DNA of 5,439 nt from an uncultured Catenibacterium sp. (GTDB taxonomy: Bacteria > Bacillota_I > Bacilli_A > Erysipelotrichales > Coprobacillaceae), in contig CAAFPB010000220.1 in NCBI GenBank assembly GCA_900764725.1, positions 1 to 5,439 on the forward strand. The letters are read 5' to 3'. Below, piece after piece: positions 1-5,439 of this stretch. The first letter of the stretch is position 1. Each line of letters opens with the position of its first letter. Below the pieces are notes generated by a model that was given only the letters and a program-made list of their open reading frames with translations, had not been told where the DNA came from and ran no database searches. The position numbers and the translations under genes are program-made.

Positions 1-92
1 ATGTCAGGATAATCCTGCGCCAACACACTCTCCACTGCACCGCGAATTGTCTTCTCACGGTTGTAACAACTAGTTATAATCGAAACTTTCAT
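1..92 (-). CDS. Family 2 glycosyltransferase, N-terminal fragment (30 codons, runs off the window)
   Basis: Only the first 30 residues are present; the gene continues beyond the left edge. The start MKVSIITSCYNREKTI followed by SVLAQDYPD is the classic first strand and helix of a GT-A fold family 2 glycosyltransferase. In this family the nucleotide-sugar base is bound by the early SIIT-x-x-YN segment, and the Q-x-Y-P segment leads to the V-x-D-(G)-x-S-x-D motif, which here lies outside the window. It resembles colanic-acid-type transferases such as WcaE/WcaA, but 30 residues do not fix donor or acceptor. The ATG begins one base after the TAA of the TPR gene (TAA-A-ATG), so its translation is probably coupled to that gene, and its ribosome-loading region lies inside the TPR reading frame. 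Hand count of positions 1-60 gives 53% GC, a sharp rise from the AT-rich gene before it. Confidence 0.88.
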   Translation of the reverse strand, partial: MKVSIITSCYNREKTIRGAVESVLAQDYPD

Positions 93-93
93 T

Positions 94-1650
94 TTAAATC
101 TTCTCACTCATTTTCAATTCATCAAACACCTCATTACGCAAATTTATCAATTCTAGCTTTTCATTAGGAATAGCTAATTGCTCTAACTCCATTAATGCCG
201 AAGTATTTTGATAATTTGAAAAAATAATTTCTTCTCTAAGCATATTAATTTGAGCTTTGATCTTGACCTCATCGCTATTTTCTTTCAATGCAGAAGCATG
301 AAGTATCGCTTGTTCATATAGTTTTTGTCCCTTTTCTCTATCTTTGCGACGATAAGCTATTAAGCCATGAGTTGCTTCCTTACAAATGGACATTGATTCC
401 GACAAAGCCTTATTACAGTGTTCTAACTGTTCCATATCTTTTGCTGCTTCATCAAGCTTGTTAATTCTTGCATTAACATAAGCTCGATTATTTAACATCC
501 ATGGATCATTAGGATGAGACTTTAGCCCAACTCCCAAAATATTAGAACTTAAATCATAATCTCTTAAAAGAGATGTAGAAATTTCATAGCCAATAAAAAC
601 TGGTTTTAAAGAGAATGGCATATCGCAAATCCAATCAATAGCATGATGAATGGATTCTCGAGCATCATTCAATTCCAAGGCCTTATAAACTTTACTTTCG
701 TGGCTGCATTTCACATTAAGACCTGATTGTATTGTTATAGGTATTCGAGCAGAAATCATTGCCCATTCAGCCTGCGCCAAACTATTATCGTTAGGATCAA
801 CTAATGATTGATTAAACAAGTCACGACTTTTTTTTCTTGTTCCATATTCCATCTCTACAGTACCCAGAGCACTTGCCAACTCTGAAATGCTAAACGGAGT
901 ATAGCTTGATGAAAAAATCATCTGTTGACCTTTTTTGATGTTACCAGAGCGTTTACCTCTCATCATAGCGATAGAGATATCTGATGCCATCAACCATGGA
1001 TCAAATCTTGATAAGCCTGTTTTTCTCACAATTTCTGCAGCTCTCTCATTATCTCCAATATGGATATAAAATCTAGCAGCAGCCCTTGCCACAAACCTAT
1101 TCTTTGGATCTAAATAGAGCGCCATTCTCATAAGTTTTTCAGCTTTATCTTTCAAACCGACAGTTACATAAGCTCGGGCCATATCCACATATACTATAGG
1201 ATTAAAAGGATAAGCATGAGCATATATTCTAAGGGCATGAATCTTTTTATGAGTTTCGCTTGCCGTCTTTAATTTCTCTATAGCTACATTTTTTAAACGC
1301 AATACATCTTTATCACATTCCACTTTATTATTATTGGCAAGAATGTATTCTGCTGTTTGTTTTTGTACCAAATTTATTTTATCCTGCTTTGCCAACAAGA
1401 ACTTAGCAGCTTCTATTACATGCGAGTTATTTTTTTGACTATTTGTTATAGCAGCACTTATTAAGTCACTTGCTCTATAAACAGACTTAGAATCTATCCA
1501 ATCTGAAATATACTCATCAATAGGATACAAATCAGCATCACTGAGATTCACATTTTCAAATGAAGTGAGTTCTCCCAAATTGACGGTATTGTTATAGTAT
1601 CGCCAATTTGGTATAACTTTTCTTCGAGGTGTTTCTACTCTATAATCCAT
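94..1650 (-). CDS. TPR-repeat protein, third gene of kinase cassette
   Basis: A 518-residue soluble protein with no signal peptide or membrane segment. Helix-turn-helix repeats of TPR type are visible at about 151-184 (ARAYVTVGLKDKAEKLMRMA, then LDPKN), 185-217, 253-287 (ending in DPND), 347-382 (ending in HPND), 383-416 (NNRAYVNARINKLDEAAKDM) and 421-455. The DP-N and HP-ND endings are the usual TPR turn between repeats. Residues 1-60 are not TPR-like and contain IPNWRYYNNTVNLGEL, which may be a family-specific docking or recognition segment. TPR arrays bind proteins, so a scaffold, adaptor or kinase-substrate role is the natural inference; no enzymatic motif is seen. The ATG lies 6 bases after the kinase stop, which is doubled (TGATGA). 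The gene ends one base before a glycosyltransferase start. It is AT-rich (25% GC at 1321-1380, 40% at 961-1020). The exact family is not recognised. Confidence 0.88.
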   Translation of the reverse strand: MDYRVETPRRKVIPNWRYYNNTVNLGELTSFENVNLSDADLYPIDEYISDWIDSKSVYRASDLISAAITNSQKNNSHVIEAAKFLLAKQDKINLVQKQTAEYILANNNKVECDKDVLRLKNVAIEKLKTASETHKKIHALRIYAHAYPFNPIVYVDMARAYVTVGLKDKAEKLMRMALYLDPKNRFVARAAARFYIHIGDNERAAEIVRKTGLSRFDPWLMASDISIAMMRGKRSGNIKKGQQMIFSSSYTPFSISELASALGTVEMEYGTRKKSRDLFNQSLVDPNDNSLAQAEWAMISARIPITIQSGLNVKCSHESKVYKALELNDARESIHHAIDWICDMPFSLKPVFIGYEISTSLLRDYDLSSNILGVGLKSHPNDPWMLNNRAYVNARINKLDEAAKDMEQLEHCNKALSESMSICKEATHGLIAYRRKDREKGQKLYEQAILHASALKENSDEVKIKAQINMLREEIIFSNYQNTSALMELEQLAIPNEKLELINLRNEVFDELKMSEKI

Positions 1651-1656
1651 AATTCA

Positions 1657-2718
1657 TCACTTTTTAAAAACCAAAATCTCAGCCTCTCGCTTCATCAGGT
1701 CTAGTGTAGAGATAAAGCGTTCCAAACTGTAAGGATTTCCATGAGTTAGAGACAAATTTTTAGGATGACCCCTAAACTCAGGAATAGGAGAACACAAGTA
1801 CTCTATAGTCTGAAGGAGTCTGTCTCGCAACCGTATTTCCGGTATCGATTTTTTTATTTCTTCCAATGCCAAAGCAAAAGCATTGTTGAGATAAGAACGA
1901 ATTTGATCCAAATCACCTTGATAATGATCTGGAAGATATGATTCGGGAATATAACTATATAACAAAGCGTTCATACTCACACCCGTTATATAGAATACGA
2001 TAAGACTACCCAACAAATAGCAGTCTGTCAGATATTTCTGTCTCGAAGAATCTGAGATGATCCAATTATAAGATCGCTCTGGAGGTGAATAATTATGGTC
2101 TCCAGTAAATAAACGATCCTTATACGGACTATCCAAAGCTTCACAAGAAGAACATCCCAAATCTCCAATTTTGGTTTCATCATTGAATTGAAGAATATTT
2201 GATGGCTTGATGTCTTGATGTGTGATACCAACTTTATGAAGATTATACATACCAACAGCCACATCATGTAAAGATTTCATTTTCCAGGAAAATTCCAGTC
2301 TTTCTGCAACATCAAGCATATGATGAATATCATCATCTGCCATTTCAAAAACAAGATAAGGAACTAACATATTAAAAACAGAAACAAACTCTTGACCAGA
2401 ATCTATTACATAAACCACTTTCCGAACATTTCCTTCCTTACAAATTTCAGACAGGCTTCGCTCATACTGATATTGATCAATCATTATTTTCAAACAAGCC
2501 ATAAGATCAGTTCCATTCTCAGTACCACGACTCATATACTGTTTCAGATCAAGTGCCTTCATGAAACAAATACGCCCATCTTTTTCTACATCAAAGCACA
2601 TAGAATAAACGCCACCTGTAGAAGTTCCTAATGTCGAATGAATTCTTACGACTCGCCACCCACTCTGAAATATATATCCTAGCAATTTCTCTTGCTCTTC
2701 CAGACTCGTCTTTGCCAT
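1657..2718 (-). CDS. Hanks-type Ser/Thr protein kinase, cytosolic
   Basis: A 353-residue protein with the full series of eukaryotic-like kinase motifs: glycine-rich loop LGTSTGG (30-36, form GxSxxG), ATP-anchoring Lys54 in FMKAL, a probable helix-C Glu near 86, hinge LVFEM (122-126), catalytic loop HQDIKPSN (167-174; Asp169 as base, Lys171, Asn174), metal-binding DLG (186-188) in place of DFG, SPPE (211-214) in place of APE, and the helix-F Asp232 in DCYLLG. All key residues for phosphotransfer are kept, so activity is likely. HQD for HRD removes the arginine that usually contacts an activation-loop phosphate, so control may not depend on loop phosphorylation. There is no membrane segment, PASTA or other sensor domain; the roughly 60 residues after the core are short and charged. 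It starts 5 bases after the membrane-protein stop, and the TPR gene follows after 6 bases. A glycan or small-molecule kinase is less likely because K-P-S-N is typical of protein kinases. Confidence 0.93.
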   Translation of the reverse strand: MAKTSLEEQEKLLGYIFQSGWRVVRIHSTLGTSTGGVYSMCFDVEKDGRICFMKALDLKQYMSRGTENGTDLMACLKIMIDQYQYERSLSEICKEGNVRKVVYVIDSGQEFVSVFNMLVPYLVFEMADDDIHHMLDVAERLEFSWKMKSLHDVAVGMYNLHKVGITHQDIKPSNILQFNDETKIGDLGCSSCEALDSPYKDRLFTGDHNYSPPERSYNWIISDSSRQKYLTDCYLLGSLIVFYITGVSMNALLYSYIPESYLPDHYQGDLDQIRSYLNNAFALALEEIKKSIPEIRLRDRLLQTIEYLCSPIPEFRGHPKNLSLTHGNPYSLERFISTLDLMKREAEILVFKK

Positions 2719-2723
2719 ATTCT

Positions 2724-3446
2724 CTATTCTTTATCTAAAAAAGTCAAATATGCAGCAAACATCTTCTTTGCATATTTATAATCGTTGTAATACATAAAGA
2801 TTATACATACAACAAATAAGATTAGCAATATTGGATACAAATAATCAGTTACACTAATATGTGTTGCAGCCAATAAAGTTTCAAATATATGGGAACTAAA
2901 ATAAACTAATAATGAAGAAATAATAGTTCCGCCTAGTAAATTTCTATAAAAACCATAGAAGCAATTATATTCAAACACAATATTATCTTCTCGAGTTTTA
3001 TTCTTAATATCAGAAACGATATCCTCAACTCGCTTCAGCTTTTCCTTTTTATTTATGTTTACGTCCTCTATATCTATCTGTCTTTTTTCCTTTTGAAACG
3101 TCACTATTCTATTATAGCTTGCCTCAGATATACCACACCCTTTTTTCATCAAGATTTTGTGCATATAATGACGCCACATACTGTTGAAGAAAAGATTATC
3201 CACCAACATTGCAGAAAAATCACGTATGACGGCTTTTAACAAGAATATCAGTGCTGTAAATATAGCACCACCCCAAGCTATAGCCTTTGTTAAATACCAA
3301 ACAACATCCTCCTCTTTTACATTTTCTTGCGAAAAGGCTATAACCAAGAAAATTATGAAAGGAAAAATAAGACAGATAACAGCAGGCATTTTTCTGGCCC
3401 AGCAGTTATACTTTTTGTCTCTTTCGTTTTTTGCTTTTTGATCCAT
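2724..3446 (-). CDS. Four-helix membrane protein of unknown function, first gene of kinase cassette
   Basis: A 240-residue protein with a charged N-terminus and four likely membrane helices at about 20-39, 53-74, 169-192 and 202-220. Helices 2 and 3 are separated by a hydrophilic, lysine-rich segment of roughly 95 residues (75-168) that is probably cytoplasmic, as is the positively charged C-terminus. Just before helix 3 is a distinctive string, YNCFYGFYRNLLGG (160-173), which looks like a conserved core. I recall similar NxxYGFxRNLxGG strings in unnamed bacterial membrane proteins but cannot verify this here. No enzymatic motif is seen. The start at 3446 is the only ATG in frame: an in-frame TAA lies four codons upstream. 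The kinase begins 5 bases after its stop, so the two are surely co-expressed; this protein may be the sensor or membrane anchor for the kinase, or its effector. It is extremely AT-rich (22% GC at 2761-2820). Function unknown. Confidence 0.82.
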   Translation of the reverse strand: MDQKAKNERDKKYNCWARKMPAVICLIFPFIIFLVIAFSQENVKEEDVVWYLTKAIAWGGAIFTALIFLLKAVIRDFSAMLVDNLFFNSMWRHYMHKILMKKGCGISEASYNRIVTFQKEKRQIDIEDVNINKKEKLKRVEDIVSDIKNKTREDNIVFEYNCFYGFYRNLLGGTIISSLLVYFSSHIFETLLAATHISVTDYLYPILLILFVVCIIFMYYNDYKYAKKMFAAYLTFLDKE

Positions 3447-3501
3447 AATAACATTATTTTAATTAATAATTATTTTTCTTTATATAATCTTCATCACAGG
3501 A

Positions 3502-3519
3502 ATACCTTGGTATATACCA
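3502..3519. repeat. Overlapping palindromes upstream of the kinase cassette
   Basis: TGGTATATACCA at 3508-3519 is a perfect 12-bp palindrome. It overlaps a second inverted repeat, ATACC-TT-GGTAT, at 3502-3513. They lie in the 91 bp gap between the glycosyltransferase stop and the membrane-protein start, about 56 bp upstream of that ATG, with a very AT-rich stretch (3447-3490) between. This is where a repressor or activator site for the three-gene cassette would be expected. No Bacteroidetes -7 element (TAnnTTTG) is present in the gap, so a promoter here is not shown. A role as a dimeric-regulator operator is inference; chance remains possible in DNA this AT-rich. Confidence 0.35.
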
Positions 3520-3537
3520 TTCTCCATATTTTTCACT

Positions 3538-4443
3538 CTATTTTACTTCCTTATATGTATCTATGAGATACTTTTTTATCTTACCTTCATCAAAGCCAAA
3601 CTTCTTTTTGATTTCATATACCTTGGCATCCACCAGGAATCGGTACCAGAAACCTTGTAGAACATACCATATAAAGCCTTGCTTGCCATCCATAAAACCA
3701 AGTTTCAAGATAAATCTGATGAAGAAATACAGGAATGGTCTTAGGAAGAGAGGCATTCTAGCATACCTCACCTTCAACCAGCGCTTTCTTTCCGCATCGT
3801 TACCAAAAAACTTAGCAGCTACACCTTCAGCATCAGCATCCATCTCATACTGCATCTGCAACATGTTGATAGCTTCACGAGACGCATACTTGTTGTGCTT
3901 GTCACTCCACCAGGTCAGATCATTCAGATTCTCATCCGTCTGATCGCCATCAACATAGATAGCCTTACCAGAAGTGATGATAAGATGCTCATCCATCACC
4001 TTGTTCTCACTCTCACCGAATCCTTTACGGATAACCTTAATCTGAGGAGCCGGATACCAACCGCCATGTTTCAGCTTTCTGCCTTGGAAAACGATGGCTT
4101 TATTTACATAGATACCATTTACATCTTGCTCACAAGTACCTATAGCCTTAGAAACTTTCTCTCCTAACTCTTCAGAAATATACTCATCAGCATCCACACG
4201 CCAGATCCAATCTCCGGCAATCTCACAATTTCTGATAGCCCAGTTGAACTGTTGAGCCTGATTCTCAAACGGATGCTTCACCGTCTTAGCTCCCAGTTCT
4301 TCCGCTATCTCCAGCGTCTTATCAGTAGAGAATGAGTCTATCACCCATATTTCGGTGACAAACGGAGTGAGCGATTTGATGCAACGAGCTATATGCTTCT
4401 CCTCATCTTTTGTCAAGATGATAGCTGTTATAGTATTACTCAT
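3538..4443 (-). CDS. Family 2 glycosyltransferase, WaaE/KdtX type
   Basis: A 301-residue GT-A enzyme that transfers a sugar from a nucleotide-sugar donor to a lipid-linked or lipid A-core type acceptor at the inner face of the cytoplasmic membrane. Visible motifs: TAIILTKDEEKHIARCI (6-22), the WaaE-like start; VIDSFSTDKT (34-43), nucleotide binding; WRVDADEYI (81-89), with the metal-binding D-x-D at 84-86; MDEHL (150-154), carrying the probable catalytic acid; and HNKYASREA (183-191), typical of the WaaE/beta-1,4-glucosyltransferase branch. The C-terminal part (232-270) is aromatic and hydrophobic and should sit against the membrane. Length is about normal for the family. The start is fixed by an in-frame TAA two codons upstream. 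It lies 92 bp after the acetyltransferase and probably shares its transcript. The core is about 48% GC but the last 60 bases fall to about 27%, next to the AT-rich cassette. Sugar specificity cannot be read. Confidence 0.94.
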   Translation of the reverse strand: MSNTITAIILTKDEEKHIARCIKSLTPFVTEIWVIDSFSTDKTLEIAEELGAKTVKHPFENQAQQFNWAIRNCEIAGDWIWRVDADEYISEELGEKVSKAIGTCEQDVNGIYVNKAIVFQGRKLKHGGWYPAPQIKVIRKGFGESENKVMDEHLIITSGKAIYVDGDQTDENLNDLTWWSDKHNKYASREAINMLQMQYEMDADAEGVAAKFFGNDAERKRWLKVRYARMPLFLRPFLYFFIRFILKLGFMDGKQGFIWYVLQGFWYRFLVDAKVYEIKKKFGFDEGKIKKYLIDTYKEVK

Positions 4444-4535: not shown

Positions 4536-5090
4536 TTACCTTAATGTTCTTTTCTTGATAACCTTTGCCGGATTTCCACCGACGACAGTCCAAGGTTCAA
4601 CACTTTTATATACAGAAGCCGTAGCACCTACCACGGCCCCCTCTCCTATTTCTACTCCCATACCAATGTATGCACGGCTACCAACCCACGCACCTCGGTG
4701 CAAGACTATAGGAGCCGTAATGAGTCCGCTATCCGCCGTATTAGCGTGATCTACATCATGCCCTGCAGTGCAGAGATATGAGTACTGCGATACGATAGCG
4801 TCATCCTCTAATACCACCCAGTCTTGATTATAACAAATCACTTCAGGCCCCAAACAGGCACGATGCCCCATTTGCAGCATCCAAGGAGCCCAGATCTTTA
4901 CTGAAGCATAAACATTTGCATCCCATTCTATCTTAGCTCCGAACAATCGCAACAAGGCAATGCGCCACTTGCGAAACGCTGGAGTAATAAAAGGACGAAA
5001 CAGAAATGCAGCTGTGATATTCCACACCACTCGCTTTATTTTGATACTCCCAGACACATGCCCAGGAGTATGACGTTCTAAATTAACCAT
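4536..5090 (-). CDS. wcaF: WcaF-type hexapeptide-repeat sugar O-acetyltransferase
   Basis: A 184-residue left-handed beta-helix (LbH) acyltransferase, the usual length for the WcaF/colanic acid acetyltransferase group. It moves an acetyl group from acetyl-CoA to a sugar hydroxyl of a polysaccharide building block in the cytoplasm, working as a trimer. The N-terminal helical part (about 15-50: VVWNITAAFLFRPF, then RLFGAKI) is the typical WcaF lead-in. The hexapeptide coils run from about 52 to 170 (VYASVKIWAP, then RGAWVGSRAYIGMGVEIGEG). The catalytic His is at 111 in TAGHDVDH, and the closing VVGGNPAKVIKK (169-180) is the family's C-terminal signature near the CoA site. GC is high (53% and 58% in two hand-counted lines), as in the left-edge glycosyltransferase. 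The symbol rests on family resemblance; the acceptor sugar is unknown, and other LbH acetyltransferases of capsule loci look alike. Confidence 0.92.
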   Translation of the reverse strand: MVNLERHTPGHVSGSIKIKRVVWNITAAFLFRPFITPAFRKWRIALLRLFGAKIEWDANVYASVKIWAPWMLQMGHRACLGPEVICYNQDWVVLEDDAIVSQYSYLCTAGHDVDHANTADSGLITAPIVLHRGAWVGSRAYIGMGVEIGEGAVVGATASVYKSVEPWTVVGGNPAKVIKKRTLR

Positions 5091-5301: not shown

Positions 5302-5439
5302 CTAAGCCTTAGTTCCACGAAGAACCTGTCTAACACTTTTCGGTAATTCATCAGAAGATTGCTTCAACATCTCTTCATGTATAGCAATAGCCTCTTGGCT
5401 ATCAAATCTCATTCTTATTAATTTATTATGTCCACCAAC
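5302..5439 (-). CDS. C-terminal end of an unidentified gene (45 codons)
   Basis: An open minus-strand frame enters from the right edge and ends at TAG (5304-5302), giving 45 residues that begin VGGHNKLIRMRFDSQEAIA and end SVRQVLRGTKA. The composition is that of a soluble protein C-terminus: an amphipathic Glu/Lys/Leu helix (SQEAIAIHEEMLKQ) followed by a short basic tail. It fits the strand and the locus, so it is most likely another polysaccharide-biosynthesis gene. The fragment carries no motif I can assign, so no function is given. The frame is open from the first base, so the true start lies outside the window. Confidence 0.62.
   Translation of the reverse strand, partial: VGGHNKLIRMRFDSQEAIAIHEEMLKQSSDELPKSVRQVLRGTKA

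Follow-up and report, generated by a model that had tools for sequence, protein, structure and literature searches.

A PDC-M71-like kinase–TPR pair and a four-helix membrane protein form a candidate defence cassette within a glycan locus

Introduction

What do a membrane protein, a Ser/Thr protein kinase and a tetratricopeptide repeat (TPR) protein do among glycosyltransferase genes: do they control the glycan, or are they defence cargo that happens to sit there? The question is raised by contig CAAFPB010000220.1 of an uncultured Catenibacterium sp., a 5.4-kb stretch of DNA (the window) that carries the three genes on its minus strand. A first-pass annotation made from the sequence had described them, with gaps of 5 and 6 bases, exactly as we find them, had not recognised the combination as a named system, and had left the choice between capsule control and defence undecided. 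Two of the three genes prove to match a catalogued defence candidate, PDC-M71, and the third belongs to a family that recurs beside other putative immune genes. Our preferred reading, to which we give an even chance, is that the PDC-M71 kinase–TPR pair and the shared-family membrane protein together make up an abortive-infection system directed against phages, defence being suggested by genomic association. The three genes, in transcription order, are:

2724-3446, minus strand: membrane protein, 240 amino acids, four-helix; candidate effector; no curated family in the libraries scanned
1657-2718, minus strand: kinase, 353 amino acids, Hanks-type, non-RD Ser/Thr; PDC-M71A
94-1650, minus strand: TPR solenoid protein, 518 amino acids; PDC-M71B

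The kinase and its TPR partner

The kinase aligns end to end with the PADLOC model PDC-M71A (residues 1-351 on model positions 1-350 of 352, E = 1.6e-133), and the TPR protein does so with PDC-M71B (residues 1-513 on positions 1-510 of 515, E = 2.5e-167). Judged by sequence, both genes belong to PDC-M71, a phage-defence candidate of PADLOC-DB 2.0.0, so that the combination is in larger part a catalogued one after all; the membrane gene and its relatives reached no convincing PADLOC model. The PDC candidates are reported to originate from a guilt-by-embedding screen, most of them without experimental validation (PMC12988326). The string 'PDC-M71' does not occur in the literature text searched, and literature searches returned no title on a kinase/TPR/membrane trio, as judged by titles.

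The kinase matches Pfam PF00069 at 1.3e-13 (51.4 bits against a cut-off of 31.7) and has the complete Hanks-type motif set, comprising K54 (the strand 3 lysine), E86 (the helix C glutamate), HQD169xKxxN174 and D186LG. Among 128 aligned kinases E86, H167, D169, K171, N174 and D186 are invariant, K54 is kept in 125, the other three having gaps, and position 168 is glutamine in 127. The presence of HQD and DLG in place of the usual HRD and DFG indicates an intact but non-RD kinase, which refines the original description of an intact Hanks-type kinase lacking a sensor domain; indeed, scans with Pfam, PADLOC and NCBIfam found no second domain, and a PDB search returned generic kinases only. The trio thus exists as described, the catalytic set of its kinase is complete, and the view that its parts fit a signalling device is supported. 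One family kinase (locus L064, 4821-6533) has 570 amino acids, about 200 residues more than the others, but its open reading frame (ORF) start was set mechanically and the extension may be unreal.

The structure model of the TPR protein is all-helix, with a mean predicted local distance difference test (pLDDT) score of 87.7, and fold and sequence searches returned generic TPR solenoids only. Pfam TPR families match at 4.4e-05 and weaker, all below their curated cut-offs. The conserved residues of its N-terminal segment are R10, P14, W16, R17 and E27. In two loci (L032, 11032-12575; L043, 11059-12608) the TPR gene is split into two ORFs, possibly by decay or by mis-assembly.

A scan of representative genomes with 40 aligned kinases gave 363 kinase relatives, the best 80 of which were kept and read. 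In 79 of these 80 loci the TPR gene lies directly after the kinase gene on the same strand, a regularity beyond what chance would give, and in the sole exception (L030) the contig ends inside the kinase. The same adjacency is found in all three plasmids read, of five with a match, and in five of six loci from the viral collection, the sixth locus matching only weakly (E = 2e-11) and lacking a TPR gene; neither protein was found in phage records. The relatives include members of the Bacteroidota, Gammaproteobacteria, Planctomycetota, Acidobacteria, Spirochaetia and Gemmatimonadetes, and their genera include Rhizobium and Micromonospora. PDC-M71 is in this respect a strictly paired kinase–TPR module across several phyla. 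Its distribution is patchy: of 399 genomes in the family of genome G001, 2 have PDC-M71B, both already in the kinase scan, and of 14 control genomes none does.

Genes adjoining the pair in other genomes

Near neighbours of the pair were taken as the two closest genes of at least 110 amino acids on each side, amounting to 144 of 148 selected genes for loci L001-L046 and 148 genes for L047-L089; 36 of the L001-L046 loci supplied the far control, 138 genes at distances above 5.5 kb. The commonest Pfam families near the pair in the first set are Methylase_S (5 of 144), N6_Mtase, ResIII and HsdM_N (4 each), followed by SWI2_SNF2, DEAD, HSDR_N and AAA_21 (3 each). The far genes include Methylase_S and AAA_21 twice each and Phage_integrase three times, the rest falling mostly into metabolic, transport and transfer families. 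The comparison of 5/144 near with 2/138 far for Methylase_S, and of 4/144 near with absence from the far listing for N6_Mtase, indicates that restriction families lean towards the pair; integrases and AAA_21 do not. In the second set restriction genes are not prominent, the commonest families there (of 148) being Phage_integrase (7), HTH_31 and HTH_3 (4 each), Resolvase (3) and ThiF (3). PADLOC models matched 440 times near and 141 times far at 1e-10, figures that are not gene counts, as many models match one gene.

Some loci are clear cases. BilD lies 30 bases upstream of the pair in L006 (2.4e-134), and L005 and L007 hold homologues of it; PtuA and PtuB lie upstream in L035 (read as L113), where a weak SIR2-like gene follows downstream; L017 has genes like hsdM and hsdS upstream and one like hsdR downstream, L028 has hsdS and hsdR upstream, and L010 has a type II restriction gene near the pair. 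In a narrow search with 15 seed proteins, 15 of the 79 pair loci proved to have a gene of the restriction, methyltransferase, Bil or Septu kind no more than two genes away (weakly in L012, 1.8e-9); beyond 5.5 kb, one of the 79 has such a gene (L025, whose near match is hsdR). These figures are only descriptive, because most of the seeds were drawn from the same loci and many loci have no DNA that far out.

Because relatives of the pair adjoin restriction-modification, Bil and Septu genes, our reading leans to defence, and the choice that the first-pass annotation left undecided is tilted to that side without being settled. The mobile company of the pair suggests another possibility, that of a toxin–antitoxin-like or element-maintenance module with the kinase as toxin and the TPR protein as its restrainer. 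Phage_integrase (7/148) and Resolvase (3/148) in the second set would fit such a module, as would the plasmid copies of the pair, which have integrase, TniQ, NACHT or relaxase genes in their vicinity. We nevertheless think it very improbable, given that the kinase gene comes first, that both genes are large and well conserved, and that such a module would leave the Bil, Septu and type I restriction genes beside the pair unexplained.

Three further observations concern these neighbourhoods. The ThiF-family genes of the second set are E1-like and adjoin the kinase–TPR pair (3/148 genes scanned). On a Deinococcus plasmid (L087) a Pycsar effector family protein and a nucleotide cyclase are annotated a few kilobases from the pair (14688-15017 and 16063-17016). 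A membrane partner general to the pair is unsupported, as a crude hydropathy count found few multi-helix neighbours besides BilD.

The membrane protein and its relatives

The third protein has four hydrophobic regions, as the first-pass annotation had said, its ends and middle being rich in lysine and arginine and its two short loops poor in them. From charge and hydropathy both ends and the long middle region are predicted to lie inside the cell. AlphaFold2, given 21 sequences, models it as entirely helical (mean pLDDT 74), and fold searches with the model found nothing at E = 0.001. Neither Pfam nor NCBIfam gives a significant match, and the sole PADLOC match, to PD-Lambda-5_A at 1.1e-4, spans 56 residues, so that this is a family not covered by the defence models scanned. 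Y13, A17, R18, Y160, N161, G165, R168 and N169 are common to all 17 aligned family members.

The family recurs. There are 34 clusters of relatives, one of them named Prevotella sp., and profile searches detected relatives in eight genomes, 5 of the 399 from the family of G001 and 3 of the 393 from the order of G002, G002 included; scans of genome and viral contigs by pattern gave none, the genome relatives all coming from the profile searches. In seven of the eight genomes (L096, L097, L098, L099, L100, L110 and L111) a metallo-β-lactamase (MBL)-fold gene lies within two genes of the membrane relative, some of these calls being weak and resting on PADLOC matches of about 1e-8 (L091/L096) or on similarity to such a gene (L111). 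E1-E2 and JAB matches are confirmed for a gene in L097, L100 and L111, and L096 and L098 have a 709-amino-acid gene whose start is nearly identical to that of the E1-E2-JAB gene of L097; with these, a ubiquitin-like E1-E2-JAB gene probably accompanies the MBL gene in five of the eight genomes. A cytosine methyltransferase gene and a type II restriction gene lie nearby in L097, the membrane relative of L099 adjoins an AbiLi-like ATPase gene, and in L100 an AbiEii gene lies directly upstream. It is the company kept by the gene and its relatives that suggests an effector role for the membrane protein.

Two of these loci have arrangements of their own. L111 (8336-12476) holds a tight operon of MBL-fold, E1-E2-JAB and membrane genes, its membrane partner again without a PADLOC model, and L098 has two membrane gene copies, one full-length and one short (7125-7844 and 9207-9500), each followed by an MBL-fold gene.

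In the eighth genome (L070, also read as L101) the order is kinase, TPR protein, membrane protein. The L070 kinase is sister to a 22-member clade that includes the window kinase (supports 0.933 and 0.993), which suggests that the link between membrane protein and kinase may be ancestral and the gene order changed since; for this reason we do not claim two independent origins of the link. When a widened membrane profile was run over L001-L089 only L070 matched. A different line of evidence comes from contig sizes. The longest contig of six of the 34 membrane clusters is exactly as long as that of a listed TPR cluster, and in three of the six as that of a kinase cluster also, whereas a control with sizes shifted by up to 200 gave a mean of 0.24 coincidences and a maximum of 2. 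Five of the six are concordant in divergence (at 4811, for example, membrane protein 53%, TPR protein 53% and kinase 63%); the discordant one, P0143 and P0060, which coincide at 3170 although their identities to the window proteins are 90% and 40%, is not counted as support. By these matching sizes, the trio probably persists to a divergence at which the membrane protein keeps about 46% identity.

The kinase–TPR pair is a unit, and the trio is not obligate. The pair alone could then be the defence system, with the membrane gene either an independent neighbour or another small system that accompanies it in one clade. We regard this as distinctly unlikely: 78 of 79 genome pair loci have no detectable membrane relative, and in seven of eight genomes the membrane relatives stand beside MBL-fold genes without kinase or TPR protein, but only 5 bases separate the membrane gene from the kinase gene in the window, L070 retains all three genes in the order kinase, TPR, membrane, and the membrane/TPR size coincidences extend to about 46% identity.

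The glycan locus

Five minus-strand genes lie complete in the window, a sixth begins there, and at the far edge another one ends. Transcription would run from a WcaF-like acetyltransferase gene through a family-2 glycosyltransferase, the membrane protein, the kinase and the TPR protein to a probable second family-2 glycosyltransferase. The features around the trio, as context, are:

4536-5090, minus strand: hexapeptide acetyltransferase, WcaF-like; PF00132 at 1.4e-06, NF007797 at 9.5e-42, below cut-off
3538-4443, minus strand: upstream family-2 glycosyltransferase, outside the system; PF00535 at 1.2e-14
3447-3537, minus strand: gap 5' of the trio, 91 bases; no promoter-like match in consensus scans
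1-92, minus strand: probable family-2 glycosyltransferase start, 30 readable residues; leaves the window

Within the trio 5 bases (2719-2723) separate the membrane and kinase genes and 6 bases (1651-1656) the kinase and TPR genes. The next ORF starts at position 92, 1 base past the TPR stop, and exits the window; judged by a motif only, its 30 readable residues look like the start of a family-2 glycosyltransferase. The placing of the trio between two glycosyltransferases accordingly holds on the upstream side, by the PF00535 match, and is presumptive on the downstream side. At 5302-5439 (minus strand) the C-terminal part of an ORF enters from outside, 45 residues of which were read.

Such packing raises the possibility that the trio regulates the locus, a membrane-held, TPR-docked kinase phosphorylating assembly or export proteins and so setting glycan output. 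The trio is wedged between glycosyltransferase genes with 1 base to the next gene, and the 91-base gap before it matches neither of the two promoter patterns scanned, so that co-transcription with the glycan genes is possible and a regulatory role stays in contention. In addition, the membrane cluster P0142, a close relative without the N-terminal part, lies behind a glycosyltransferase-like stretch (PF00534), which may be a true fusion or an assembly artefact; if a fusion, glycan surroundings may recur. Against this, no glycosyltransferase family is among the best 25 of 126 neighbour families of the pair in L001-L046 or the best 25 of 122 in L047-L089, and from the ranking of the listed families any such family has at most one member of the 144 and of the 148 genes; restriction, Bil and Septu genes are found there instead. 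The GC content of the trio (31-36%) is also unlike that of the complete flanking glycan genes (42-47%), which fits inserted cargo, with the caveat that glycan loci vary anyway and the sample is small. No near DNA match of the window was found in plasmids. In other genomes it is more often genes of a defence type that adjoin the pair, and for this reason we rank glycan regulation second and consider it rather unlikely.

Several findings weigh against defence by the trio as a whole. The membrane gene was detected in one of the 80 genome loci fetched by the kinase (L070); 64 of the 79 pair loci have no seed-detected defence gene within two genes, and most seeds came from the same loci; integrases are not enriched near the pair in L001-L046 (2/144 near, 3/138 far); and the window has the pair tightly set in a glycan operon, 1 base from the next gene and with no promoter-like match in the 91-base gap before the trio. 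As for embedding in a known defence system, the 5.4-kb window shows none beside the pair, and the relatives show the 15 of 79 loci given above by seed search. The first-pass annotation had proposed asking whether the three genes stay together, whether they do so outside polysaccharide loci, and whether defence systems accompany them, and the answers are mixed. Adjacency holds for kinase and TPR protein (79/80), and the membrane gene was detected in 1/80; the pair occurs without any glycosyltransferase family among the best-ranked neighbour families, and the membrane gene mostly with MBL-fold genes; restriction, Bil and Septu genes lie near some pairs, and in the 64 loci just mentioned the seeds detected none within two genes.

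A possible mechanism

We read the trio as a defence cargo, on genomic association, with the membrane protein as a shared effector and the glycan locus as merely the site at which the cargo would sit. The TPR solenoid could serve as sensor and also as platform, and the kinase may dock on its conserved N-terminal segment. When the cell is infected, the target of phosphorylation by the kinase would be either its TPR partner or the membrane protein in its cytoplasmic middle region; the kinase is in this way the predicted switch that triggers the membrane protein. The membrane protein would then provide the output, opening or damaging the inner membrane and stopping the infected cell. The window version of PDC-M71 would in this way display a visible candidate output.

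That E1-E2-JAB genes, too, have this membrane family beside them suggests a single output common to different immune chemistries. A bolder and more tentative proposal, which we hold to be possible though doubtful, is that one four-helix membrane effector family serves two unrelated immune switches, phosphorylation by the kinase–TPR pair of PDC-M71 and a ubiquitin-like reaction in the MBL genes with E1-E2-JAB. The window would in that case hold a kinase cascade with an interchangeable membrane-killing output, inside a surface-glycan operon.

Comparison with known systems

KKP, Stk2 and PD-T4-6 likewise have a protein kinase within a proposed defence locus, and by likeness the window device would work as do kinase-based antiphage loci such as KKP (PMC11341870). 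The catalytic core is all of the window kinase that the PD-T4-6 and Stk2 models cover (7.6e-12 and 3.8e-09); its full length is not matched. We know of no TPR partner for either Stk2 or PD-T4-6. PDC-M71 itself is closer, the window kinase and TPR protein matching both models end to end in the order kinase then TPR, but the window adds a membrane gene without a PADLOC model and lies in a glycan locus.

Among membrane effectors, the S_4TM proteins (PF18159) act in CBASS-type loci and share with the window protein a general layout of four helices and a cytoplasmic middle region. Membership of that family was rejected, as there is no PF18159 match at E up to 1, and hhalign against one S_4TM protein gave E = 0.12 over 36 columns with a probability of 0.5 on a scale of 0-100. 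Multi-gene systems with an exchangeable membrane effector do exist, and the proposed window device resembles them. The MBL-fold/E1-E2-JAB operons (PADLOC PDC-M48B, E1-E2 and JAB models) share with the window a homologous membrane gene; no MBL-fold or E1-E2-JAB gene is present in the window, where the kinase and TPR protein stand in their place.

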